Assembly (NCBI GenBank): GCA_030706685.1 | Contig: JAUZOA010000050.1 | Span: 1-38,121, forward strand | Length of the DNA stretch: 38,121 nucleotides | Reading direction: 5' to 3' | Origin: Bacteroidota bacterium | GTDB taxonomy: Bacteria > Bacteroidota > Bacteroidia > Chitinophagales > Chitinophagaceae | In this document: positions 9,991-28,541 of the stretch, in pieces | Layout: every line of letters begins with the position of its first letter | Position numbering within the stretch: the first letter of the stretch is position 1 | Notes under the pieces: generated by a model | Databases searched by the model: none | What the model saw: the letters and a program-made list of their open reading frames with translations, nothing else | Told to the model about the DNA's origin: nothing | Translations under genes and position numbers: made by a program

Positions 9991-10041
9991 GACATTTAGT
10001 TTTATCCGGCTGCACCGTGTCAGGAATTGCAGCCTACATTA

Positions 10042-10134
10042 ATTAAGTTAGAAGTACGAAGTATGAAGTACGTACTTCAGTTAAGTTAGAGGTACGAAGT
10101 ATGAGATACGTACTTTGTACTTCCTATTTCGTAG
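10042..10134. repeat. Heptad repeat tract, GAAGTAy family, rpoA-rplQ spacer
   Basis: Degenerate 7-bp units (GAAGTAC, GAAGTAT, GAAGTAC, then the inverse GTACTTC) fill the spacer. A block beginning TTAAGTTAGA occurs at 10043 and again at 10081, a 38-bp tandem period with a few changes. The tract reaches the rpoA stop codon (10135-10137). A related tract lies at 28467-28541, and a fragment near 32827-32835. Confidence 0.75.
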
Positions 10135-11136
10135 TTACAGCTCGTCTTTATCAACACCCAGTTTCTGCAGATCCATTCCGAAATGCAAGCCTCTTTCTGT
10201 CAGCACCTGCTCAATTTCAGCCAGCGATTTCTGACCGAAGTTGCGGAATTTCATCAGGTCTTCCTGCTCATACTGTACCAGTTCACTCAGTGAATTGATT
10301 TTTGCTGCTTTCAGGCAATTAAAGGCACGTACTGAAAGATCAAGATCCTCCAGCGGAGTCTTTAATACCTTACGCAGTTGCAATGTTTGTTCGTCTACCA
10401 GGTCTTCTTTCTTTTCTTCCCTGTTATCAAACGTGATGTTTTCATCTGTAATGATCATCAGGTGCTGGATCAGGATACGGGAAGCCTGTTTTACTGCTTC
10501 TTCCGGGTGAATGGTTCCGTCGGTAGAAACTTCCATGATCAGCTTTTCAAAGTCTGTGCGCTGTTCAACGCGGGTATTCTCGATCGTGTATTTTACATTC
10601 TTGATCGGTGTGAAAATAGCATCAATCGGAATATATCCGAGAGGAGCGTCTTTTGGCTTGTTCTCTTCAGCAGGAACGTATCCGCGGCCCTTACCTACTG
10701 TTAATTCGATCTCCATTTTAGCTGATGAATCCAAAGTGCAGATCAGCAGATCGGGGTTCATGATCTGGAAAGAGTGTGTAGCTTCCCCGATCATCCCGGC
10801 AGTAAATTCAGTTTTATTTCTCAGCGACAAGATGATTTTCTCATTTGCCACTTCATGTTCAACGATCTTCTTGAAACGAACCTGTTTCAGGTTAAGGAAT
10901 ATTTCAACCACATCTTCGCTGATGCCTTTCATGGTAGCAAATTCGTGCTCTACACCTTCGATCTTCACACCCACAAGGGCATAGCCTTCCAGCGAATTCA
11001 ACAATACACGGCGAAGTGCGTTGCCGATTGTTACACCATAACCGGGCTCTAACGGGCGAAACTCGAACTGAGCTTCAAAATCAGTAGCCTTTTGTAATAT
11101 GATCTTATCGGGTTTCTGGAAATTTAAAATGGCCAT
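10135..11136 (-). CDS. rpoA: DNA-directed RNA polymerase subunit alpha
   Basis: A 333-residue alpha subunit, close to the usual length. The N-terminal dimerisation domain (residues 1 to about 235) contains the characteristic RPLEPGYGVTIGNALRRVLLNSLEGYA stretch (given here only for its start, RPLEPGYG, and its end, SLEGYA). The C-terminal DNA-binding domain (about 255-333) carries LDLSVRAFNCLKAA and NFGQKSLAEIEQVL. It lies between rpsD and rplQ, the standard alpha-operon order. Confidence 0.98.
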   Translation of the reverse strand: MAILNFQKPDKIILQKATDFEAQFEFRPLEPGYGVTIGNALRRVLLNSLEGYALVGVKIEGVEHEFATMKGISEDVVEIFLNLKQVRFKKIVEHEVANEKIILSLRNKTEFTAGMIGEATHSFQIMNPDLLICTLDSSAKMEIELTVGKGRGYVPAEENKPKDAPLGYIPIDAIFTPIKNVKYTIENTRVEQRTDFEKLIMEVSTDGTIHPEEAVKQASRILIQHLMIITDENITFDNREEKKEDLVDEQTLQLRKVLKTPLEDLDLSVRAFNCLKAAKINSLSELVQYEQEDLMKFRNFGQKSLAEIEQVLTERGLHFGMDLQKLGVDKDEL

Positions 11137-11167
11137 ATTTCAGATTTATTTTTTGAATAATTAATTA

Positions 11168-11231
11168 GGTGAGTTGTCAGCAGGCAGTTGTGAGTTTTAG
11201 ACTCACTATTCACTGCTCACCACTCACTTGC
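11168..11231. repeat. Heptad repeat tract, GTGAGnn family, rpsD-rpoA spacer
   Basis: A first run on the plus strand reads GTGAGTT, GTCAGCA, GGCAGTT, GTGAGTT; a second, inverted run contains ACTCACT, TCACTGC, TCACCAC. Both have a 7-bp period and could pair as a hairpin. The tract touches the rpsD stop codon at 11232. The same family recurs at 26134-26160. Confidence 0.75.
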
Positions 11232-11837
11232 TTACTTGCTGTACAACTCAACAATCAACTGTTCCTTAATGTTCTCCGGAACGCTTTCTCTCTCAGGATA
11301 GGTAATAAAAGTACCCTTCAGATCCGTGTCGCTCCAGTCAAGCCAGCTAAATTTTGGGTTTTTAGGGCGAACGACGCCGGTGATAGAAGCTTTAGCTTTG
11401 CTTGCTTCTTTAATAGTGATAACATCACCTGCTTTAAGCTGGAAAGAAGGAACGTTTACCACATCGCCGTTTACTTCAATGTGTTTGTGGCTTACAAGCT
11501 GACGGGCAGCCGGTCTTGAAGGAGCAATACCCATGCGGAAAACGGTATTATCCAGGCGGGCTTCCAGCAATTTGATCATATTCTCGCCGGTCACACCTTT
11601 GCGACGGCTTGCTTCTTCAAAAGTTTTGCGGAATTGTTTTTCCAAAACACCATAAGTGTATTTGGCTTTCTGCTTTTCGCGAAGCTGAAGAGCGTATTCA
11701 CCTAAAGTTTTGCGCTTTTTTTGTGCGCCATGCTGACCCGGGGGATTGCTGTTCTTGTCCAGCCATTTGCCATTACCTAAAATGGGTTCCCCGAATCTAC
11801 GGGAGATCTTGGTCTTAGGACCATTGTAACGTGCCAT
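11232..11837 (-). CDS. rpsD: 30S ribosomal protein S4
   Basis: A 201-residue primary 16S rRNA-binding protein. The N-terminal part (MARYNGPKTKISRRFGEPI) and the S4 RNA-binding domain near residues 92-155 (LEARLDNTVFRMGIAPSRPAARQLVSH in outline) are intact. The C-terminus is typical (ESVPENIKEQLIVELYSK). The zinc-finger cysteines of some S4 proteins are absent, the usual zinc-free form. In other bacteria S4 represses its own operon; no such site is recognisable here. Confidence 0.98.
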   Translation of the reverse strand: MARYNGPKTKISRRFGEPILGNGKWLDKNSNPPGQHGAQKKRKTLGEYALQLREKQKAKYTYGVLEKQFRKTFEEASRRKGVTGENMIKLLEARLDNTVFRMGIAPSRPAARQLVSHKHIEVNGDVVNVPSFQLKAGDVITIKEASKAKASITGVVRPKNPKFSWLDWSDTDLKGTFITYPERESVPENIKEQLIVELYSK

Positions 11838-11950
11838 AGTTATTATTCATTTACGCTTTTTTGAAACGGTGCGCTGATCAGTAAAAGCGTTAAAAATCAA
11901 TCAGGCACCCTTTGTTTAAATGAAACCAAACTGGCTCAATATGTATAAGG

Positions 11951-11978
11951 CTATTAGCTGATAGCTACCAGCTGATAG
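11951..11978. repeat. Heptad repeat tract, AGCTnnn family, rpsK-rpsD spacer
   Basis: Units AGCTGAT, AGCTACC and AGCTGAT occur in a row, preceded by CTATT. It lies just beyond the rpsK stop (11984-11986) and is a short example of the family seen at 13121-13189, 16271-16379 and 18048-18160. Confidence 0.7.
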
Positions 11979-11983
11979 TTTTT

Positions 11984-12397
11984 TTAAACTCTTCTTTTCT
12001 TTGGCGGGCGGCAACCATTGTGTGGCAATGGAGTCACGTCTTTGATCATCACCACTTCAATACCATTCTGGGAAATCGCACGGATAGAACCTTCACGACC
12101 AGCTCCCGGGCCTTTCACAAATACGTCCACGCGTTTTAAACCGGCATCAAAAGCCGCTTTAGCCGCATCAGCAGCCGCCATTTGCGCGGCATAGGGAGTA
12201 TTCTTCTTTGATCCCCTGAAACCCATTTTACCGGCGCTGCTCCAGGAAATCACCTGGCCACTCTTGTTGGTTAAACTGATAATGATATTGTTGAAACTGG
12301 CGGTAATATGAGCATCGCCATACGCGTCAACTTTTACTATTCTTTTTTTGGCCGCTACTTTTGGACTTGGTGCGGCTGCCTGTTGTGCTTTTGCCAT
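11984..12397 (-). CDS. rpsK: 30S ribosomal protein S11
   Basis: A 137-residue small-subunit platform protein. After an Ala/Lys-rich N-terminal extension of about 20 residues comes the S11 core: [32 protein letters not shown], and the conserved end [18 protein letters not shown]. The asparagine-glycine pair known to become isoaspartate in S11 is present in HNGCRPPK. Confidence 0.97.
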
Positions 12398-12505
12398 GAG
12401 GTAATCTTTCTTTCTTTTTTAAATATGATTCCGCCTGAAACGGAATTGAACCAACCCTCCTGCTGACTTATGAAGCTATCCGGTATTGATTCGAAATAGA
12501 TAAGT

Positions 12506-12558
12506 CTTCACTTCGCTTCGCTCAGTGTGACAGTTATCATGCTGAACGAAGTGAAGCA
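12506..12558. repeat. REP-like inverted repeat, rpsM-rpsK spacer
   Basis: CTTCACTTCG (12506-12515) pairs exactly with CGAAGTGAAG (12547-12556). The interior carries CTTCGCTCAGTGTGAC and CATGCTGAA. I know the word pattern CTGAACGAAGTGAAGCAT with CGCTCAGTGTGAC as a dispersed intergenic element in Bacteroidota. The right arm ends two bases before the rpsM stop codon, the same placement as the heptad tracts. Confidence 0.75.
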
Positions 12559-12939
12559 TTATTTCTTAGCCGCCTTCTTTTTACCTGCGACTGTTTTACG
12601 TTTTCCTTTCCTTGTCCGGCTATTTGTTCTTGTACGCTGGCCACGAACGGGTAATCCTTTGCGATGACGAAGTCCGCGATAGCAGGCGATATCCAACAAA
12701 CGCTTGATGCTCATCTGCACTTCCGAACGCAACTGGCCTTCCACTTTCAGCTCTTCTGTAATAGTATTACGAATGGCATTCAACTCCTCATCATTCCATT
12801 CATTGACCTTTTTATCCCGGCTGATATTATTTTTATCCAGGATATATTTAGCCGTAGAAGGGCCAATACCATATATATAGGTAAGGCCTATTTCGCCTCT
12901 TTTATTTTTGGGTAAATCTACACCGGCAATACGAGCCAT
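12559..12939 (-). CDS. rpsM: 30S ribosomal protein S13
   Basis: A 126-residue head protein of the small subunit that contacts the P-site tRNA and bridges to the large subunit. The N-terminus [20 protein letters not shown], the [11 protein letters not shown] helix-hairpin-helix and the [20 protein letters not shown] block are all typical, followed by a Lys-rich tail. The gene follows rpmJ with a 58-base gap. Confidence 0.98.
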
Positions 12940-12997
12940 ATTTTCTGTTTATTGTTTGTCGTTTTTGTTTTGTCAAGCTGTTAGCTATGAACTTCTC

Positions 12998-13114
12998 TTA
13001 TCCCTGTCTTTGCTTAAAGCGGGGATTCTTTTTGTTGATAACATACAACTTGCCCTTCCGGCGAACGATTTTACAATCGACGCTGCGTTTTTTGATGGAT
13101 GCTCTTACTTTCAT
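12998..13114 (-). CDS. rpmJ: 50S ribosomal protein L36
   Basis: A 38-residue protein, so short that ORF callers with a length limit miss it. The ATG is at 13114 and the TAA at 12998-13000. The translation begins [20 protein letters not shown] and ends KQRQG, matching L36. The usual CxxC...CxxxH zinc ligands are reduced: only one cysteine (DCKIV) is seen, so this is the C-minus, zinc-independent form. It sits between infA and rpsM as in most bacteria. Confidence 0.95.
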
Positions 13115-13120
13115 TATTTT

Positions 13121-13189
13121 AAGCTTTTAGCTTTTAGCTGTGTTCCTAATATTTGATCTCTATTGCTAATAGCTGACAGCTAATAGCTT
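13121..13189. repeat. Paired heptad tracts, AGCTnnn family, infA-rpmJ spacer
   Basis: Near the rpmJ start the plus strand reads AAGCTTTTAGCTTTTAGCTG (13121-13140). Near the infA stop it reads GCTAATA, GCTGACA, GCTAATA, GCTTA (about 13165-13190). The two tracts are imperfect inverted copies and could pair around a 25-base loop. The last unit runs into the infA stop codon (13188-13190). Confidence 0.75.
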
Positions 13190-13406
13190 ATTTATACCTG
13201 AATATGATTCTTCCCCTGCTTAAATCATATGGCGACATTTCAACCCCTACTTTATCTCCCGGCAGAATACGTATATAGTGCATCCTCATTTTCCCTGAGA
13301 TGGTAGCCAGAATTTCATGTCCATTTTCCAGTTTTACCCTGAACATGGCATTTGAAAGCGCTTCTATGATCGTACCATCTTGTTTAATAAGGGGTTGTTT
13401 CGACAT
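13188..13406 (-). CDS. infA: Translation initiation factor IF-1
   Basis: A 72-residue OB-fold factor that blocks the ribosomal A site during initiation. I start at the ATG at 13406 ([19 protein letters not shown]), which gives the canonical length; an upstream in-frame ATG at 13424 would lie inside the predicted -7 promoter element and is unlikely. The conserved [14 protein letters not shown] and [15 protein letters not shown] segments are present. It is the first gene of the ribosomal operon here. Confidence 0.96.
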
Positions 13407-13421
13407 ATATTTTTGGGGCTG

Positions 13422-13429
13422 CAAAGATA
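13422..13429 (-). promoter_or_regulatory. Putative -7 promoter element of the infA operon
   Basis: On the minus strand TATCTTTG matches the Bacteroidota -7 consensus TAnnTTTG, 16 bases before the infA start. The -33 position (about 13449-13452) lies in a T-rich stretch without a clear TTTG. It would give a leader of roughly ten bases. Confidence 0.55.
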
Positions 13430-13438
13430 GGCGGAATG

Positions 13439-13487
13439 CCCTGAAAAAAGAAAAAACGCAGATTTTTTTTCAGGGTTGCCTGAAAAA
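13439..13487 (-). promoter_or_regulatory. Three mutually complementary segments before infA
   Basis: CCCTGAAAAAA (13439-13449), TTTTTTTTCAGGG (13463-13475) and CCTGAAAAA (13479-13487) are arranged so that the middle one can pair with either neighbour: an 11-bp stem with the left, or a perfect 9-bp stem with a GTTG loop with the right. This is the geometry of competing hairpins. It lies between the stop of the 13516-13911 gene and the infA promoter. It may be only a terminator for the upstream gene, although neither stem is followed by a clean U-tract. Confidence 0.45.
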
Positions 13488-13515
13488 GCTTAGTCGCTGG
13501 TAAAAATATTGACTA

Positions 13516-13911
13516 TCAGGGGAGATCCAACGGTACTTTTGTCATATCCAAATGAAGATTCTGGAGCTGATGGACGCCCAGCGGGGCGCTAAAATGGCGT
13601 CTGTCTTCCCGGTACCACATCTCCAGATTTGAAAAATCCCCTCTATGGGGGGTAACAAGACGAAAAGCACCTTTAAGGTATTTGACTGCTCCGTCAAGGT
13701 CCTGTTTTTCGAATCCTAACTTAGTCAACTGGCTTTCATCCAGGGGAACCGCCTGGATATCCTCCTGCCCGTACCAGAATTCCTGCACCCCATTGTCCAC
13801 CAGTGCGAGGTGTTCTACATGGTTTACACGAACAACGACTCCTTCCCTTTCTACGCCGTCATCATTTACTTTTACAATATCACCCTGTTTTAACTCTCCG
13901 ATTTTTAGCAT
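13516..13911 (-). CDS. Small protein of a Bacteroidota family often found in phages
   Basis: A 131-residue protein without signal or TM segment. Residues 1-50 (MLKIGELKQGDIVKVNDDG...) look like a small beta-barrel of SH3 or KOW type. PLDESQLTKLGFEKQ near residue 55 and GVHQLQNLHL near residue 112 resemble motifs I recall from a widespread Bacteroidota hypothetical family (ELRIGN...PLTEEWLLKFGF...VHQLQNLYF) that is frequent in prophages. No phage gene surrounds it here. Its function is unknown. It stands where secY or map would be expected ahead of infA, separated by a hairpin region. Confidence 0.6.
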   Translation of the reverse strand: MLKIGELKQGDIVKVNDDGVEREGVVVRVNHVEHLALVDNGVQEFWYGQEDIQAVPLDESQLTKLGFEKQDLDGAVKYLKGAFRLVTPHRGDFSNLEMWYREDRRHFSAPLGVHQLQNLHLDMTKVPLDLP

Positions 13912-14043
13912 AGCATTCGTTTTTGTACTCCGAATATAAAAAAGTTTACGCTGACAGCAAATGACTTTTTATAAACCGGAAACGGAGGATTCCATCACCC
14001 TGTTAAATTAGAATTAAGCCCGGTTTTCTGTCCGTTGAAAATA

Positions 14044-15162
14044 TCAGTTTCGTTTGTGATAACTGATGACCGCCCAGCCATTAAAGAAAACGGCAAACCC
14101 GAACATGATAAGCAAATGATTCCTTATATCCCCAAGACTGCTGCCTTTTAGCACAACCATTCTCATTACATCTATGAAATAAGAAACGGGGTTTATTTTC
14201 GTAATGAGCTGCGCCCATTGGGGCATACTGTCAATAGAAGTATACAAGCCTCCTAATAATATGAAGACCATCATCATGAAAAAAGAAATCAGCATCGCCT
14301 GTTGCTGGGTGCCCGTGAAAGTAGAAACCAAAAGACCCAGTCCTAATACTGCCAGCAGGTAAATAGCGGCAAAAACATAAATCGCAAAAAGGCTGCCCGC
14401 CGGGACAATTCCATAAGCTACCCGGGCAATAAGCATCCCGATGGATAAAACGATCAGGCCAAGTACCCAGAAAGGGATCAGTTTGCCCAGGATGAACTGG
14501 TATTTTTTAACAGGGGTTACATTGATCTGTTCAATGGTGCCTATTTCCTTTTCTTTTACGATATTCAATGCTGCCAGGAAAGAACCCACCATGGTCACGA
14601 GTATTACCAGTATTCCGGGCACCATGAAGTATTTATAGTTCATCAGCGGGTTGAACCAATTGGAGGAAGTGATCTCGATATTGGTTTCGGGGCTGAAACG
14701 GGGGAACTGTATCCATTCGGTTCTTACCTGGCTGTTATAGTCCTGCACGATATTTCGCAAATAAGCTCCGCCCAGATTAGCTTTTACCCCGTTGATCGCG
14801 TTGACGGCCATAAATAAAGTGGCTTTGTCTTCCTTTATTAATTGCTTTTCAAAAGATGCCGGTATCTCTAAGATGAGGTCCGCCTTGTCTTTTTCTACTT
14901 CATGCAGGGCCGTTTGGTAAGAGCCGGTATAATCCTGCAATTGAAAATAAGCGGAAGCGGTAATCTTCGAGACCAACTGGCGCGAGTAATCAGAATGATC
15001 ATGATCCACCACGGACAGCTTTATATCTTTTACCTCATAATCCGCTGCCCAGGGAAGAACGAGCAATTGTATAATGGGCATCACAAAGATGACCCGGAGG
15101 ATCGAAGGCTCCCGGAATATCTGCCGGAATTCTTTTTGTAATAAAAACCTGAGCGTCCTCAT
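14044..15162 (-). CDS. ABC-2 type transporter permease (YbhR/YbhS-like)
   Basis: A 372-residue inner-membrane permease. One TM segment near residues 20-38 is followed by a large extracytoplasmic domain (about 40-175) and five C-terminal TM segments. KEKEIGTIEQINVTPVKKYQFILGK, the conserved cytoplasmic amphipathic motif of ABC-2 permeases, lies near residue 205 (E-K-E-x-G-T-x-E-Q). It is the last gene of the exporter operon. Its ATG overlaps the stop of the preceding permease in an ATGA, so the two subunits are probably translated together and form the heterodimeric membrane part. Confidence 0.92.
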   Translation of the reverse strand: MRTLRFLLQKEFRQIFREPSILRVIFVMPIIQLLVLPWAADYEVKDIKLSVVDHDHSDYSRQLVSKITASAYFQLQDYTGSYQTALHEVEKDKADLILEIPASFEKQLIKEDKATLFMAVNAINGVKANLGGAYLRNIVQDYNSQVRTEWIQFPRFSPETNIEITSSNWFNPLMNYKYFMVPGILVILVTMVGSFLAALNIVKEKEIGTIEQINVTPVKKYQFILGKLIPFWVLGLIVLSIGMLIARVAYGIVPAGSLFAIYVFAAIYLLAVLGLGLLVSTFTGTQQQAMLISFFMMMVFILLGGLYTSIDSMPQWAQLITKINPVSYFIDVMRMVVLKGSSLGDIRNHLLIMFGFAVFFNGWAVISYHKRN

Positions 15163-16265
15163 GCCAAACGTATTTTAAATTTTTTAAGCGCGAGCATTAA
15201 TAAAAGCAACATCATCCCCGCCAATACAAGGGTCTCCTGCCAAACAGATTCGAACCCCACTCCTTTGATCATTACATCTTTGACGATCAGGTAATACCAT
15301 TTAGCAGGTACTATATTCGATATGATCTGTAGTAGCAAGGGCATATTTTCAATCGGGAACATAAACCCGCTCAGCATGATCGTGGGCAGGAACATCCCCG
15401 TTAATGAAATAAACATCGCCGTCTGCTGCGAATCCGTGGAAGCGGATATCAGCAAACCGAAAGCCAGGCAAGTCAGCGTAAATAAGACGCTTTCGAAACT
15501 GAGTAATAATAAGCTGCCATTGATCGGCACATCTAACACAAATACACTTAACAGCAGAATACTGGCAATATTTACGATGGATAATAACAAATAAGGAACT
15601 GCCTTGGCGATAATGATCCTGAGCGGCTTTACAGGCGACACCAGCATGACTTCCATGGTTCCCATTTCTTTTTCACGTACCACCGTGATAGCCGTCATTA
15701 ATGTACAAACCAGCATCAGCACCATCGCCATTACCCCCGGTACAAAATTATAAGCGCCTTTCAACTGCGGGTTATACAGCATCCGCATCTCCGTATTGAT
15801 CGTATAAGGAAGTTGATGATCCTGCGTAATGCGTTTCTGGTAATCCACAATAATAGCAGAAGCGTAATTCGTCAATGTATTCGCTACGTTCGGGTCAGAA
15901 GCGTCAGCCACCAACTGAACCTGCGCCTTATTGAAATGCCGGAGATCTTCCCCAAAATGCTGCGGGAAAACAACCGCTAACTTGATCTTTCCTTCCCGGA
16001 AAGAACTTTCAATATCATTATAGGAATAAATATCTTTCTCAATATTAAAATAACGGCTGGATCCGATCTCCGCAATGAGTGAAGCGGTAGCGGCATCCCT
16101 TGAATTATCAAGGATGGCTATTTTAGAATTCTTCACTTCATTGGTCAACGCAAAACCAAAAATAATGATCTCCATGATGGGCATACCCAGCAGTATGAAC
16201 AGTGTCCGTGTATCGCGGAAGATGTGATGAAATTCTTTTTTGATAAAGGCAATGAATTGTTTCAT
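15159..16265 (-). CDS. ABC-2 type transporter permease (YbhS/YbhR-like)
   Basis: A 368-residue permease with the same plan as its downstream partner: N-terminal TM, extracytoplasmic domain, VREKEMGTMEVMLVSPVKPL motif near residue 205, and five further TM segments. I start at the ATG at 16265 (MKQFIAFIKKEFHHIFRD). The earlier in-frame ATG at 16283 lies inside a heptad repeat and would add six uninformative residues. The partner begins in the last codons of this gene (ATGA overlap at 15159-15162). Confidence 0.92.
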   Translation of the reverse strand: MKQFIAFIKKEFHHIFRDTRTLFILLGMPIMEIIIFGFALTNEVKNSKIAILDNSRDAATASLIAEIGSSRYFNIEKDIYSYNDIESSFREGKIKLAVVFPQHFGEDLRHFNKAQVQLVADASDPNVANTLTNYASAIIVDYQKRITQDHQLPYTINTEMRMLYNPQLKGAYNFVPGVMAMVLMLVCTLMTAITVVREKEMGTMEVMLVSPVKPLRIIIAKAVPYLLLSIVNIASILLLSVFVLDVPINGSLLLLSFESVLFTLTCLAFGLLISASTDSQQTAMFISLTGMFLPTIMLSGFMFPIENMPLLLQIISNIVPAKWYYLIVKDVMIKGVGFESVWQETLVLAGMMLLLLMLALKKFKIRLA

Positions 16266-16270
16266 GTTAT

Positions 16271-16379
16271 AGCTGTTAGCCATTAGCTTTTAGCCGTTAG
16301 CCCGTTCATAAAATTTGGTTTACTTCAAGCCTGATACTATTTTGCTAAAAGCTGATAGCTAAGCGCTGACAGCTTTTAG
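16271..16379. repeat. Paired heptad tracts, AGCTnnn family, ATPase-permease spacer
   Basis: The first tract (16271-16303) lies just before the permease start and contains the units TTAGCCA, TTAGCTT, TTAGCCG, TTAGCCC. The second (16344-16379) contains GCTAAAA, GCTGATA, GCTAAGC, GCTGACA, GCTTTTA and runs into the ATPase stop codon at 16380. The tracts are in opposite orientation and enclose about 40 unique bases. Confidence 0.8.
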
Positions 16380-17123
16380 TTATTCCCCTCTTGTCGCCTT
16401 CCTGGCTAATTTCAAAAACACTTCATCCATAGAAGCCGCGTTGAAAGTTTTTTTCAGTTGCTGTGGCGTATCCAGCGCGTCTATCCTTCCATCCACCATA
16501 ATGGAAATCCGGCTGCAATATTCCGCTTCATCCATATAATGTGTTGTCACAAAAACCGTGATCCCTGATTCCGCGGCCTCGTAGATCATGTTCCAGAATT
16601 CCCTTCTTGTTACCGGGTCAACGCCGCCGGTAGGCTCATCGAGGAAAACGATTTGAGGTTCATGAAAAATGGCCACTGAAAATGCCAGCTTTTGTTTCCA
16701 GCCGAGTGGCAATGATCTCACCAATTTATTCGTCTCGCTTTCCAAATGCAGGTGCTTTAATATAAATACCGTCTTTTCTTTGATGAACTTATCGCTCTTA
16801 CCATAAATGCCTGCATAAAAGCGAATATTCTCTTTTACCGTCAGGTCCTCGTACAAAGAAAATTTCTGGCTCATGTACCCGATATTCTGTTTGATCTTTT
16901 CGTTTTGCCTGTACACATCAAACCCCGCTACTGTCGCTTTCCCGGAAGTGGGTAATGACAACCCGGACAACATTCGCATCGCGGTAGTTTTTCCCGCCCC
17001 GTTAGCGCCCAGGAAACCGAATATCTCGCCTTTATGCACATCAAACGAGATCGCATCCACCGCGGTGAAGTCGCCAAAACGTTTGGTAAGCTGATCGGCT
17101 GTTATAACTTTATCATTGTTCAT
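16380..17123 (-). CDS. ABC transporter ATPase, degenerate signature motif
   Basis: A 247-residue nucleotide-binding subunit. Walker A is GANGAGKTT near residue 40, Walker B with catalytic glutamate is IVFLDEPTGGVDP near 160, and the H-loop histidine is present (VTTHYMDEAE). The signature motif is not LSGG but LPLGWKQ, so the ATP site it completes should be inactive or slow. This matches the second nucleotide-binding half of E. coli YbhF as I remember it. Its start codon directly abuts the stop of the other ATPase, so the two are co-translated halves of what is one fused protein in enterobacteria. Confidence 0.93.
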   Translation of the reverse strand: MNNDKVITADQLTKRFGDFTAVDAISFDVHKGEIFGFLGANGAGKTTAMRMLSGLSLPTSGKATVAGFDVYRQNEKIKQNIGYMSQKFSLYEDLTVKENIRFYAGIYGKSDKFIKEKTVFILKHLHLESETNKLVRSLPLGWKQKLAFSVAIFHEPQIVFLDEPTGGVDPVTRREFWNMIYEAAESGITVFVTTHYMDEAEYCSRISIMVDGRIDALDTPQQLKKTFNAASMDEVFLKLARKATRGE

Positions 17124-18035
17124 TTAATTCTTCATTAAAGCGATAAAACAATCTTCGATATCCGGTCTTACTTCTTTCATTTCATACTGCCTGCCTGTTT
17201 GCCTTAAATAATCTTTCAATTCGTTTTCACCGCCGTGTTTCATTATTACATGATGGTATTCTCCGAAAGGATAGGCATCTTCTATGTCTTCATTTTGCTT
17301 AAGATCATTCAGCAAATGAAGCATGTCGTTGCTTTTTACGGCAAATAAGGTTTTGCCGAATTCATTAACAACTCCCTGCGGCGTATTGATCGATAAAATT
17401 TTCCCGGACTGTAATAATGCCACCCTGTCACACAAACCGGCTTCATCCATATAAGGTGTGGAAACTAGGATCGTGATGCCCTGCTCCTTCAATCTTTTCA
17501 GCATTTCCCAGAATTCTTTCCTGGACACGGCATCTACACCGGTCGTAGGTTCATCAAGGAATAAAACAGAAGGCCGGTGTATCAACGCGCAACTCAATGC
17601 CAGTTTCTGTTTCATTCCCCCCGATAATTTACCCGCGCGACGATTTTTAAATGGCTCTATTTGCGAATAAATATCTTTCACCAGGTCATAATTCTCTTCG
17701 ATGGAAGTATTGAAGATGGTTGCAAAAAAATCAAGGTTTTCCTTTACTGTCAGGTCCTGGTATAAAGAGAATCTTCCCGGCATATATCCCACCCGCTCAC
17801 GGATAGTTTTGTAATCTTTCACAATGTCGAATCCATCCACGGTGGCCGTTCCTCCGTCTGCCAGCAGCAATGTTGTCAATATCCTGAACAGGGAAGTCTT
17901 CCCCGCTCCATCCGGCCCAATGATCCCGAAAATTTCTCCCTTGTCCACTTGAAAACTTATTCCCTGCAAGGCAGAAACAGGGGCTTTTTTTGTTCCGTAA
18001 CGTTTGATGATATTGCTGACGATTACTGCGTTCAT
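17124..18035 (-). CDS. ABC transporter ATPase, canonical signature, no H-loop histidine
   Basis: A 303-residue nucleotide-binding subunit. Walker A is GPDGAGKTS near residue 40, the signature is intact (KLSGGMKQKLALS) and Walker B reads VLFLDEPTTGVD. The position of the H-loop histidine reads STPYMDEAG, a proline. About 75 residues follow the core domain and end in DIEDCFIALMKN. Together with the neighbouring ATPase it forms a pair with complementary motif losses. It corresponds to the first half of YbhF. Confidence 0.93.
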   Translation of the reverse strand: MNAVIVSNIIKRYGTKKAPVSALQGISFQVDKGEIFGIIGPDGAGKTSLFRILTTLLLADGGTATVDGFDIVKDYKTIRERVGYMPGRFSLYQDLTVKENLDFFATIFNTSIEENYDLVKDIYSQIEPFKNRRAGKLSGGMKQKLALSCALIHRPSVLFLDEPTTGVDAVSRKEFWEMLKRLKEQGITILVSTPYMDEAGLCDRVALLQSGKILSINTPQGVVNEFGKTLFAVKSNDMLHLLNDLKQNEDIEDAYPFGEYHHVIMKHGGENELKDYLRQTGRQYEMKEVRPDIEDCFIALMKN

Positions 18036-18047
18036 ATCCGGGTGAGG

Positions 18048-18160
18048 CTATTAGCTTTTAGCCGTTAGCTTTTTCGTTATTAAAAAAATTTCTGCTCATA
18101 CTGTCAATGATTCACTAATAATAATGCTATTAGCTAATAGCTACCAGCTAACGGCTATTA
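18048..18160. repeat. Paired heptad tracts, AGCTnnn family, hlyD-ATPase spacer
   Basis: One tract (18048-18070) sits before the ATPase start and reads CTATTAGCTTTTAGCCGTT in part. The inverted tract (18126-18160; units TTAGCTA, ATAGCTA, CCAGCTA, ACGGCTA) runs into the hlyD stop codon (18158-18160). About 55 AT-rich bases separate them. Confidence 0.8.
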
Positions 18161-26133: not shown

Positions 26134-26160
26134 CCTCACCACTGACAACTCACCACTCAC
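26134..26160. repeat. Heptad repeat tract, GTGAGnn family
   Basis: Plus-strand units CTCACCA, CTGACAA, CTCACCA and CTCAC with a 7-bp period. The PD40 gene's stop codon (TGA on the minus strand, 26157-26159) lies inside the last unit. The word family is the one found at 11168-11231. Confidence 0.7.
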
Positions 26161-27290
26161 TTATCCACCCAATCGGCAATGAATATATTCGTATCATGCG
26201 TACCACCATTATTGCGGTTACTGCAGAATACCAGCTTCTTTCCATCCGGCGAAAACATCGGGAAAGCATCAAATATTTTTTCATGGGTGATCTTCTGCAG
26301 GTTGGTTCCATCCTCGTTAATAGAATAAATATTAAAAGGAAATCCTCTTTTATATTCCTGGTTGGAGGCAAAGATGATGCGCTTGCTGTCGGGAAAAAAA
26401 GCGGGCGCCCAGTTAGCCTGCCCGAAATGGGTGACCTGGTGCGCATTGCTTCCATCCGCATTAGCCACGAAGACTTCCATATTGACAGGCGCTACTAAAT
26501 TTTCCGCTAATAAGTCTTTATATTCTTTCACCTCTGCATCTGTTTTCGGCCGGGAAGCTCTCCAGATTATTTTCTTTCCGTCGGGACTGAACCAGGCGCC
26601 GCCATCATAACCAAGAGTATTAGTCACCCTATTTTCTTTACCGGTTTCAAGGTCCATGATATAAAGATCAATATCACCATCCTTATCGCTTGTATAGATC
26701 ATTTTTTTGCCATCCGGCGATAAAGTGCCTTCTGCATCATAGCCTTTTGAATGGGTCAACTGCCTGGTAATTTTTCCATCGAGACCGGCCATAAAAATAT
26801 CATAGCTGTCATACAAAGGCCATATATACTTGTTGCCATATTTAGACCTGTCCGGTACCGGCGGACAGGTATCTGCACCGAGATGAGTAGATGCGTAAAT
26901 AATATGCTTGCCATCTTTGGTAAAGAAGGGACAGGTTGTTCTGCCTTTCCCGCTGCTGATCATTTTATATTCAAACTTATCGCCAGGTTTTTCCGGCACT
27001 TTGCCCATGAATATCCGGTCGCACATAATGCCTTCTTTGGGATTTCTGCGCTGAAAAACAATATACTTGCTGTCGTAGCTCCAGTAGGCTTCGGCATTAT
27101 CGCCACCAAAGGTCAATTGTTGCACATTTTTAAGATGAGTCTCTTCGGGAAATTGGATCGTGTCGCTGGCTGAGGGTAGGTTGGGGATAGCCTGTGACGG
27201 GTTTGAGGTAGCCTGTGGCTTCTTTTCTTTACATGAAACGGCTATTAAAATAATGGCAATAAGAAGTGATAAAGAAACAAATTTTTTCAT
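26157..27290 (-). CDS. PD40/TolB-like beta-propeller lipoprotein
   Basis: A 377-residue lipoprotein (lipobox IAVSC near residue 20, followed by KEKKPQ). The rest consists of six or so repeats of the WD40-like PD40 type, recognisable by FTKDGKHIIYAS, LSPDGKKMIYTSDKDGDIDL, FSPDGKKIIWRASRP, FFPDSKRIIFASN and FSPDGKKLVFCSNRN. Such propellers bind peptides or partner proteins in the periplasm or at the surface. Unlike TolB there is no N-terminal TolB domain and no pal gene nearby. Divergent from the TPR lipoprotein. Confidence 0.88.
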   Translation of the reverse strand: MKKFVSLSLLIAIILIAVSCKEKKPQATSNPSQAIPNLPSASDTIQFPEETHLKNVQQLTFGGDNAEAYWSYDSKYIVFQRRNPKEGIMCDRIFMGKVPEKPGDKFEYKMISSGKGRTTCPFFTKDGKHIIYASTHLGADTCPPVPDRSKYGNKYIWPLYDSYDIFMAGLDGKITRQLTHSKGYDAEGTLSPDGKKMIYTSDKDGDIDLYIMDLETGKENRVTNTLGYDGGAWFSPDGKKIIWRASRPKTDAEVKEYKDLLAENLVAPVNMEVFVANADGSNAHQVTHFGQANWAPAFFPDSKRIIFASNQEYKRGFPFNIYSINEDGTNLQKITHEKIFDAFPMFSPDGKKLVFCSNRNNGGTHDTNIFIADWVDK

Positions 27291-27376: not shown

Positions 27377-28468
27377 ATGAATAAACCCGCAAAAGCAATC
27401 GCAAAGAAACTATTTTCTTTATTTGCCCGGCTGAATTACTGCGCTGAATTGATTCCCCGGGCTAAAGCGAAGGATTTAGCTTGCCTGGTAATAATTAGTT
27501 TTCTCTTCATCCTTACTGCCTGTACTAATAAGGATGATGCTTCTCCTTATGATGAAATTCTCGCACAACCCTTATATGCTTCTTTGACCGATAGCATTAA
27601 GCAACAACCCAAAAACGACGAGTTGTATTTCCGGAGGGCTGTATTGCTCAACAAAAATAATTTTCCTGAGCCGGCATTGGCCGATTTTCAAAAGGCCTGG
27701 TCACTTCACAAATATGAAAAATACGCGTTCGGCATTGCCAATATATGGCTGGATAAAAAACCAGACTCTGCTGCTATATTTTTAAATGAAGCGCTGAAAG
27801 GCCTCCCGGAAAGTTATTTACTCCGCCTCAGCCTTGCCCGTGCCTATGATGCGTTGAATAAAACAGGCGAAGCGCTGAAAGTCTGCAATCAGTTGGCCGG
27901 GATGCAGCCTGCCCGGCCGGAGGTTCTCCTGTTGCAATCAGAACTTTTGGATAAGAAGGGTGATTCACTGGGTTCCATTGCCCCGATGGAAAAAGCGTAT
28001 AGCCTTTCCCCCGCCAGCCTGGAGGTGGGTTTGAAGCTGGCTTATAAATATGCAGAAAGCAAAAATGAAAAAGTCATCCCTCTCTGCGATTCGCTGATCA
28101 GGAAAGATTCGTTGCATCTCCACGCCGATCCCTTTTATGTAAAAGGGGTCTATTATTCCAATATCAATGACAAGGAAAAAGCTATTCAATGGTTTGATGA
28201 AACGATCCGGTACAGCTACAATTACCTCAATGCGTATATTGAAAAAGGAAAGATTTTGGTTGGCCAGAAAAAGATCGCGGAAGCGCTCACCGTTTTCAAA
28301 TTAGCCAACAGGATTTCACCGGCCTTCCCCGATGCTTACTATTGGATAGGAGTTTGCCAGGAAAAACAGGGGCAGAAAGATGAAGCCAGGCTGAGTTATG
28401 AAAAAGCATACAGCCTGGATAAAACTTTTACGGAAGCCAAAGATGCAGCCGATAAAATTTCGAAATAA
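27377..28468 (+). CDS. Tetratricopeptide-repeat lipoprotein
   Basis: A 363-residue protein. The lipobox ILTAC lies unusually far in (near residue 49), behind a basic stretch of about 30 residues; no later start codon would bring it closer. From residue 75 on there are TPR-like helical pairs, for example LYFRRAVLLNKNNFPEPALADFQKA (in outline), AIQWFDETIRYSYNYLNAYIEKG and PDAYYWIGVCQEKQGQKDEAR. A role as scaffold for protein complexes at the membrane is inferred. The start at 27377 (ATG) is preferred over a TTG at 27326 that lies inside the promoter. Confidence 0.85.
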   Translation: MNKPAKAIAKKLFSLFARLNYCAELIPRAKAKDLACLVIISFLFILTACTNKDDASPYDEILAQPLYASLTDSIKQQPKNDELYFRRAVLLNKNNFPEPALADFQKAWSLHKYEKYAFGIANIWLDKKPDSAAIFLNEALKGLPESYLLRLSLARAYDALNKTGEALKVCNQLAGMQPARPEVLLLQSELLDKKGDSLGSIAPMEKAYSLSPASLEVGLKLAYKYAESKNEKVIPLCDSLIRKDSLHLHADPFYVKGVYYSNINDKEKAIQWFDETIRYSYNYLNAYIEKGKILVGQKKIAEALTVFKLANRISPAFPDAYYWIGVCQEKQGQKDEARLSYEKAYSLDKTFTEAKDAADKISK

Positions 28469-28541
28469 GAAATACGGAGTACGAATAAAATCGGCTTTGT
28501 ATCTTGCAGGCGAAAAACGTATTTCTTAGCTTGTACTTCTA
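28467..28541. repeat. Inverted repeat pair, GAAGTAy family, TPR-rpe spacer
   Basis: AAGAAATACG (28467-28476), which begins within the TPR stop codon, pairs exactly with CGTATTTCTT (28518-28527). The adjacent words GGAGTACGAA and TTGTACTTCTAAC extend the match in the pattern of the 10042-10134 tract. The right arm ends shortly before the rpe start. This is the plus-strand example of the same architecture. Confidence 0.7.

Follow-up and report, generated by a model that had tools for sequence, protein, structure and literature searches.

Palindromes of degenerate 7-bp words just past stop codons in a Chitinophagaceae genome, with words that differ between sister species

Heptad Elements in the Ribosomal and Exporter Operons

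A 38,121-bp stretch of DNA (the window; contig C173, bases 1–38121, GenBank JAUZOA010000050.1) was analyzed from the genome of a Bacteroidota bacterium of the family Chitinophagaceae (GCA_030706685.1; 5.74 Mb in 226 contigs). By RpsD, its closest named relatives are also Chitinophagaceae. It carries ribosomal genes from infA to rplQ and a group of exporter genes, and the spacers between these genes contain elements in which a degenerate word recurs every 7 bp (heptads). Most of the elements are palindromes composed of a 7-bp array, a loop, and a complementary array. The elements of the window are listed below, with z scores of RNA folding relative to shuffles where a spacer was folded.

10041..10134, minus strand: heptad palindrome of GAAGTAC/GTACTTC, from rpoA (stop codon 10135–10137) to the rplQ leader; arms 10044–10079 and 10102–10137; z −4.8
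11168..11231, minus strand: heptad palindrome of GTGAGTG in the rpsD–rpoA spacer; arms 11159–11195 and 11201–11237; z −4.4
11951..11978, minus strand: AGCTnnn words in a short overlapping palindrome, rpsK–rpsD spacer; z −1.8
12506..12557, minus strand: palindrome without heptads in the rpsM–rpsK spacer, in a similar slot after the stop codon (by eye)
13118..13190, minus strand: AGCTnnn palindrome, infA to rpmJ; arms 13120–13139 and 13171–13190; z −1.7
16271..16379, minus strand: AGCTnnn palindrome between two exporter genes; arms 16271–16301 and 16344–16374; z −3.5
18047..18157, minus strand: AGCTnnn palindrome between exporter genes; arms 18051–18070 and 18132–18151, and 18059–18070 and 18146–18157; z −1.7
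26134..26160, minus strand: single CTCACCA array without an inverted partner, reaching the stop codon (26157–26159) of the gene at 26157–27290
28466..28541, plus strand: GAAATAC/GAGTACG words, degenerate, from the stop codon (gene end at 28468) onward; complementary arms 28466–28476 and 28518–28528; z −2.4

The arms of the five larger elements measured 20–37 nt and their loops 5–61 nt. An initial annotation had read AGCTnnn words at 11951–11978, 13121–13189, 16271–16379, and 18048–18160 and GAAGTAy words at 10042–10134, and these words are present; the lag-7 score of the GAAGTAC element was 12/14. The GTGAG words reported at 11168–11231 are also present with a weaker periodicity (10/14), and the periodicity at 11951–11978 is weaker still (9/14), yet this element holds an exact AGCTNNNAGCTNNNAGCT. 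The two further sites of the annotation turned out to be a single array (26134–26160) and a pair of 11-nt arms (28466–28528). Rfam gave no match at the gathering threshold in the window, and four sub-threshold matches at 10041–10143, to miRNA precursor and plastid families, were taken as hairpin artefacts.

A 7-bp Period Specific to Spacers

Genes were defined by codon-score calls of open reading frames only, without Prodigal or homology. Autocorrelation was determined on 800 kb of large contigs chosen independently of the AGCT pattern. The spacer census covered 885 spacers of 25–400 bp from 2.05 of the 5.74 Mb, with approximately 0.38 Mb of this sample coming from contigs bearing the pattern. 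Sequences L061–L064, which are all N and have no spacers, were inside the autocorrelation sets and were dropped from later spacer counts.

In the 800-kb set, the autocorrelation of spacers exceeded that of dinucleotide shuffles at lag 7 (z = 11.1), lag 14 (z = 6.0), and lag 21 (z = 4.8), and coding DNA had a period of 3 without a peak at 7. Strong lag-7 arrays numbered 38 in these spacers compared to 0.0 in shuffled spacers, and 11 were located in called coding DNA, which comprises about ten times as much DNA. The intergenic peak that the initial annotation had proposed looking for was thus observed, and its suggestion that several word families share one 7-bp period in spacers, not in coding DNA, is borne out. 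Some figures were less clear. In the 800-kb set, lags 3 and 4 were also elevated in spacers (z = 11.5 and 7.1), and lag 28 (z = 2.1) was not above lags 20 and 22. When small contigs made up most of the sample and spacers of any length were included, lag 7 did not exceed its neighbors; with spacers of up to 600 bp, its z of 7.0 was near that of lag 11 (6.7).

Over the census, a 21-nt test detected lag-7 arrays in 60 of the 885 spacers compared to 1.0 in shuffles. The same spacers yielded 18 arrays at lag 8, 7 at lag 11, and 1–3 at lags 4–6. A comparison genome, G055, of which 0.40 Mb was sampled, had a lag-7 array in 39 of 161 spacers.

The sequence AGCTNNNAGCTNNNAGCT occurred at 65 positions in the window's own genome, and the reversed control at none. 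It was found in 48 of 117 genomes of the family (13 with the reversed control) and in 31 of 118 genomes of the phylum (26 with the control). At the level of the phylum, the mere presence of AGCTNNNAGCTNNNAGCT is therefore no evidence, and only high counts are. The reversed sequence is an imperfect control, as it may itself be a heptad word (G060 gave 178 and 176 for the two). Outside the Chitinophagales (L170–L184), 5 of 110 spacers passed the lag-7 test, compared to 2 at lag 8 and 0–1 at lags 5, 6, 9, and 11.

Inverted Arms and Position After the Stop Codon

The initial annotation had described the arrays as plain tandem repeats. Among the 56 own spacers that were positive in a 14-nt test, which was also used for the counts by spacer type below, an inverted repeat scoring at least 12 was present in 68%, compared to 18% of spacers without heptads and 3% of shuffles. 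The corresponding figures for G055 were 60, 25, and 5%. The plain tandem-repeat reading was rejected accordingly, the arms being mostly inverted. The match between the two arms of an element also exceeded that obtained after permuting arrays of the same word. The mean score was 20.7 compared to 17.0 in the own genome, where 29 of 35 pairs scored higher, and 21.5 compared to 17.4 in G055, where 15 of 19 did.

Elements in own tandem spacers with an inverted repeat scoring at least 12 (n = 33) lay at a median of 4 nt past the stop codon and 39 nt before the next start codon. Thirty of the 33 started within 15 nt of the stop codon, compared to 14.6 expected by random placement in the same spacers, and the same was true of 16 of 19 elements in G055 and 23 of 33 in loci of Chitinophagales. 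In convergent spacers, the element spanned a median of 0.92 of the gap, leaving median gaps of 7 and 0 nt (n = 5). Divergent spacers showed no anchoring, with gaps of 24 and 49 nt (n = 7). The stop codons before tandem heptad spacers (n = 54) were TAA in 30 cases, TAG in 12, and TGA in 12; before all 629 tandem spacers they were TAA in 363, TAG in 96, and TGA in 170.

Heptads are not confined to operons, in which the initial annotation had placed them. They occurred in 38 of 629 tandem, 6 of 112 convergent, and 12 of 144 divergent own spacers, so that their frequency is not lower in divergent spacers of this genome. G055 had them in 24 of 118, 5 of 20, and 1 of 23, respectively, with a lower frequency in divergent spacers.

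Such a position could indicate gene punctuation, in which transcribed stem-loops in 3′ untranslated regions and between cistrons are kept by selection while the word is free to vary. A hairpin behind the last ribosome would protect the upstream message or block re-initiation, and any hairpin of sufficient length would serve. The anchoring to stop codons in tandem spacers, the nearly complete filling of convergent gaps, and the scarcity of heptads in the divergent spacers of G055 agree with this explanation, but the divergent heptads of the own genome do not, and selection for a hairpin leaves the 7-bp period of the arms unexplained. Punctuation is the main rival to the origin proposed below and, on the evidence of this and the following sections, we consider it possible but somewhat unlikely.

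Word Vocabulary

With 25 own arrays within called genes excluded, the 109 non-coding arrays of the own sample were assigned to 46 canonical words, the commonest being AGCT-type, GTGGTGA-type, GGATGCT, and CGATGTA. Conservation by position inside the heptad ranged from 0.99 down to 0.50, with positions sorted within each array and no control.

Uneven conservation and a constant period with changing words might be expected from arrays of binding sites whose 7-bp spacing is recognized by a DNA-binding or nucleoid protein. However, 46 words could hardly be read by one protein, periods of 8 and 11 bp are also present, and the conservation figure was sorted per array. We regard binding-site arrays as a very improbable explanation.

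Matching Junctions in Sister Species

Genus sisters were found via RpsD and three further proteins of the own genome. Twelve of 19 junctions yielded sister spacers of at least 40 nt, 51 spacers in all. A lag-7 signal was observed in 14 of the 51, across 7 junctions, compared to 0–1 at each of lags 4–6 and 8–13 and 0.22 in shuffles. This count used the full set; the comparison of words omitted the rpsM–rpsK and B junctions, among others.

Two of the 14 periodic sister spacers carried the own word (infA–rpmJ in G119 and G120), two a near word (infA–rpmJ in G086 and rpoA–rplQ in G117), and ten another word. The own spacer was weak, or its best word A-rich, in six of the ten changes (rpmJ–rpsM, rpsK–rpsD, and rpsD–rpoA), and the other four, at junctions C and A:u2–u1, were clear on both sides. 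Junction C has ACATCGT in the own genome, ACCACTG in G118, AAGTCTG in G121, and AAAAGTG in G117; junction A:u2–u1 has AACAGCT in the own genome and AATACTG in G086. The comparison proposed in the initial annotation thus supports a change of words between genus sisters with the period retained.

The infA–rpmJ element shares its pattern of AGC every 7 bp with G119, G120, and L108, and by eye the number of heptads differs among the own genome, G119, and G120. At the rpsM–rpsK slot, sisters have different sequences, several of them palindromic. Inspection by eye of the rpoA–rplQ spacer across the family showed post-stop palindromes of varied words upstream of the conserved leader in several loci and none in others.

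Long elements also stand where sisters have tight junctions. From stop through start codon, the two exporter junctions measure 128 and 120 bp in the own genome. G119 and G120, the two genus sisters whose sequence extends over this operon, have 12 bp at the site of 18047..18157 and 8 bp at the site of 16271..16379. Junctions of 10 bp were also found in G118 at A:u2–u1 and in G119 at C. At locus B, none of six sisters had heptads. In the slot that a CTGGATR palindrome occupies in the own genome, inspection by eye showed a GC hairpin and a T-run in four of the six, which fits punctuation.

An excess of 112–116 bp over sisters at two tight junctions, together with words common to different genera, might also be produced by miniature mobile elements resembling miniature inverted-repeat transposable elements (MITE) or repetitive extragenic palindromes (REP), with a transposase recognizing periodic hairpins. 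The evidence on copies and transposases is given below.

Terminator, RNA Structure, and Mobility Analyses

A T-tract followed 0 of 33 own heptad elements and 3 of 23 in G055, and intrinsic terminators were rejected for this shortage. Among own hairpins without heptads, T-tracts followed 26 of 74 with loops of up to 10 nt and 11 of 120 with longer loops. The long-loop hairpins are the fair comparison, so the result means that the heptad elements are not terminators, not that they are unusual.

Arm mismatches in tandem spacers of the three samples comprised 85 G.U and 99 A.C (p = 0.34), with no strand preference. By sample, the G.U and A.C counts were 35 and 55 in the own genome (p = 0.045), 24 and 12 in G055, and 26 and 32 in loci of Chitinophagales. 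The hairpin before rplQ in the rpoA–rplQ spacer, which served as the positive control, had 23 G.U and 0 A.C (pairs 1–6, 48 distinct stems). A constraint on RNA structure was thus not seen overall. For punctuation, the folding of seven window spacers at z of −1.7 to −4.8, four of them below −2, and the G.U excess of G055 alone are favorable, but there is no overall G.U preference, the own tandem spacers lean in the opposite direction, and no own element carries a T-tract. The proposal of the initial annotation that different words are interchangeable in one role gained nothing here, as neither an RNA-level constraint nor a terminator signature was observed.

The loops of own elements were mostly unique, with one similar loop-to-loop pair. 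A whole-genome search with 18040–18160 returned, besides itself, six arm fragments of 24–34 bp together with an 85-bp match at 73% identity, the latter of which would suit a mobile element. No target-site duplication was detected in 34 own elements, where the longest shared flank word averaged 2.94 compared to 2.98 for random pairing. The genome had two matches to the Y1 transposase family (PF01797), one of them above the cut-off, and no heptad arrays were present at the first PF01797 locus, the only one of the two that was checked. Fresh mobile copies were rejected as a reading of most elements on the basis of the mostly unique own loops, the lack of target duplication, and the two Y1 transposase matches.

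Origin of the Elements

We propose that the elements are DNA palindromes with arms of degenerate 7-bp words, located directly after stop codons, which are made, enlarged, or replaced in place at high turnover by slippage and fold-back copying. We judge this account, whose process is deduced from the patterns described above, to be plausible though a little short of probable. The period, the inversion of the arms, the post-stop position, and the turnover are themselves observed. In favor of the account are the genome-wide intergenic period, the agreement between arms, the lack of strand preference among mismatches, the mostly unique own loops, the tight exporter junctions of both sisters, and the varying heptad number of infA–rpmJ elements. 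Replication slippage in 7-nt steps would lengthen the arrays, and fold-back (template-switch) copying would maintain the complementarity of the two arms. Elements would survive where insertions are tolerated, that is, just past stop codons, and their tight position there could arise from the leaders and promoters that lie ahead of the next start codon. Effects on expression, such as the uncoupling of neighboring genes or slower 3′ decay, would be by-products rather than a shared sequence-specific role.

Several observations weigh against in-place generation by slippage and fold-back copying. On average, a permuted arm scored as high as the real one in 46% of trials, which makes arm copying a modest signal. 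The unique loops are not accounted for by slippage, and inverted repeats are common past stop codons of Escherichia coli for other reasons, according to excerpts of PMC6060812. At the exporter junctions, L153 measures 5 bp at the first, and at the second (abcA1–abcM2) it carries 104 bp of different sequence; given the latter, gain in the own genome over repeated loss is deduced from two sisters.

The vocabulary and some apparent copies likewise weigh against this account. Twelve of the 46 own words recur among 44 in G055, compared to 46 × 44/1172 = 1.7 expected when all classes are equally likely and base composition is ignored. The vocabulary is therefore wide but non-random, and local generation alone does not predict that it is shared. 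G055 has five similar loop pairs, ATGTACG and CTGGATR elements align among themselves across several loci, and a dispersed family includes one own "heptad" element (L020 15122). Purely local generation does not account for the vocabulary in common, these two alignable families, or the loop pairs of G055, and mobility stays a minor rival for this reason. Against it stand the mostly unique own loops, the short matches of 18040–18160, the absence of target duplication, and the transposase results, and we consider it improbable.

The dispersed family comprises L020 15122–15355 and nine other loci, with lengths of at most about 150 bp and identities of 73–95%, unlike other heptad elements.

Relation to Known Repeats

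The elements consist of tandem 7-bp units that are intergenic and more frequent than by chance, a feature of the heptamer type of long simple-sequence repeats described in PMC4679880 and PMC4692102. They are a variant of known intergenic heptamer repeats, set apart by inverted arms, many words, and word switching at the same junction.

Excerpts of PMC4692102 describe degenerate intergenic heptamers in Xanthomonas (GGGAATC) and Nostoc (GGGGAYT) that vary in length and sequence between close relatives and are nearer to the 5′ neighboring open reading frame (28 nt on average) than to the downstream one (160 nt). The present elements share the 7-bp period, degenerate units, intergenic location, and proximity to the upstream frame. 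They differ in having dozens of words, inverted arms, and word change at matching junctions, compared to the one G-rich word studied there.

TAACTGA direct repeats were reported from Beggiatoaceae, Cyanobacteria, and five Bacteroidetes, some of them before ribosomal protein genes (MacGregor, PMC4679880, as excerpted). Two close Cyanothece strains differed at these repeats mostly by 7-nt indels, and in BOGUAY the repeats were mostly just upstream of start codons; the same source cites others for the heptamer as the most frequent long simple repeat in the majority of genomes examined. The period of 7 bp and the intergenic location are common to both, whereas the elements here are inverted, have many words, and lie just past stop codons. 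The TAACTGA class was absent among the 40 of 46 own words listed, the genome itself not having been searched for it.

Inverted repeats past stop codons of E. coli are mostly parts of intrinsic terminators, with units of at least 8 bp and loops of at most 8 (PMC6060812). The concentration just past stop codons is the same, but the own sample lacks the T-tract, its loops are longer, and its arms have a period of 7 bp.

The excerpts cited here do not describe palindromes with heptad arms and a species-dependent word at one junction. The top 20 matches of each literature search contained no description of word-switching heptad palindromes in Bacteroidota, with subscription journals mostly outside their scope, and the part of PMC2267715 available to the search makes no mention of heptamer or tandem.

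Other intergenic repeats are also familiar in bacteria. The short tandemly repeated repetitive sequences (STRRs) of cyanobacteria are intergenic direct repeats of 7-bp units with few words; the present elements differ in their inverted arms (68% of heptad spacers) and 46 words. REP and bacterial interspersed mosaic elements (BIME) are intergenic palindromes near gene ends. Compared to REP/BIME with their REP-associated tyrosine transposase (RAYT), the elements have no common sequence, except in the ATGTACG and CTGGATR families, their own loops are mostly unique, and the genome has two Y1 matches.

Conserved Leaders Beside the Variable Slot

A stem-loop located directly before rplQ, which encodes L17 (window 10006–10036, minus strand), is conserved in 53 loci, L106 being left out as the same genome as L230. 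Its near-invariant loop AATTCCTGACACGGT was exact in 41 of the 53, and the pairs of its 6-bp stem were standard in 47–48 of 48 distinct stems despite letter changes. The pattern had no match in 16 of the 65 loci L105–L169 or in any of L170–L184, some of these contigs being short, and Rfam gave no gathering match to the stem-loop. In the excerpted part of PMC7247131, an L17 leader is listed only in Actino- and Proteobacteria, and excerpts of PMC2864571 place an L17 downstream element in Lactobacillales and Listeria. The stem-loop is likely an unlisted L17 leader of Chitinophagales.

Two more leader-like stretches, both common to genus sisters, are located downstream of a variable post-stop slot: GGATNNC...GTCAGCAGGAGGGTTG in the rpsM–rpsK spacer (12398–12558) and ATATTGAGCC...GGTTTCATTT...TGATCA in the rpsK–rpsD spacer (11838–11983). 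S4 leaders of Bacteroidia and Flavobacteria have already been published (PMC7247131). At locus B (L070 6900–6945), the motif TTGGCACGTC, which resembles a promoter, was seen by eye ahead of the next gene, both in the own genome and in each of the six sisters. TTT follows it in the own copy and in those of five sisters.

Further Arrays in the Genome

A second class of arrays has an 11-bp period, with words such as GTTATACTGGA and GGTCAGGnnnn. They are found mainly in longer spacers, and some are inverted by eye; 15 lag-11 arrays were counted in spacers of the 800-kb set. The following examples were located.

L065 9124: 11-bp-period array
L068 18761–18900: 11-bp-period array
L070 11991–12146: 11-bp-period array
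L080 13863–13999: 11-bp-period array
L082 19172–19290: 11-bp-period array
L088 5283: 11-bp-period array
L090 3770–3853: 11-bp-period array

Arrays with an 8-bp period showed a smaller excess, and 9 of 12 in tandem spacers with an inverted repeat started within 15 nt past the stop codon. The region L024 297–15890 contains six large genes of similar size and one smaller gene on one strand, with AGCT-type arrays in four of the gaps. A fifth gap is positive in the heptad test, and two L024 elements are 94% alike over 72 bp.

Implications

Heptamer repeats in bacterial spacers were noticed long ago and are still poorly explained. Matching sister junctions that have the period with different words, and sometimes nothing at all, separate the question of what sets the period from that of any role of the word. 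If the elements are functional, they would allow genes within operons to be decoupled flexibly; if they are neutral, they would reveal a step size in the mutations made by the replication machinery. A further and rather unlikely possibility is that Chitinophagaceae, and perhaps other Bacteroidota, have a process working in 7-nt steps, through a polymerase, a reverse transcriptase, or an end-processing enzyme, that writes palindromes at gene ends, with inheritance or selection acting on the period and the hairpin and leaving the word free. If this were true, intergenic elements locked in period but free in word would form a separate class.

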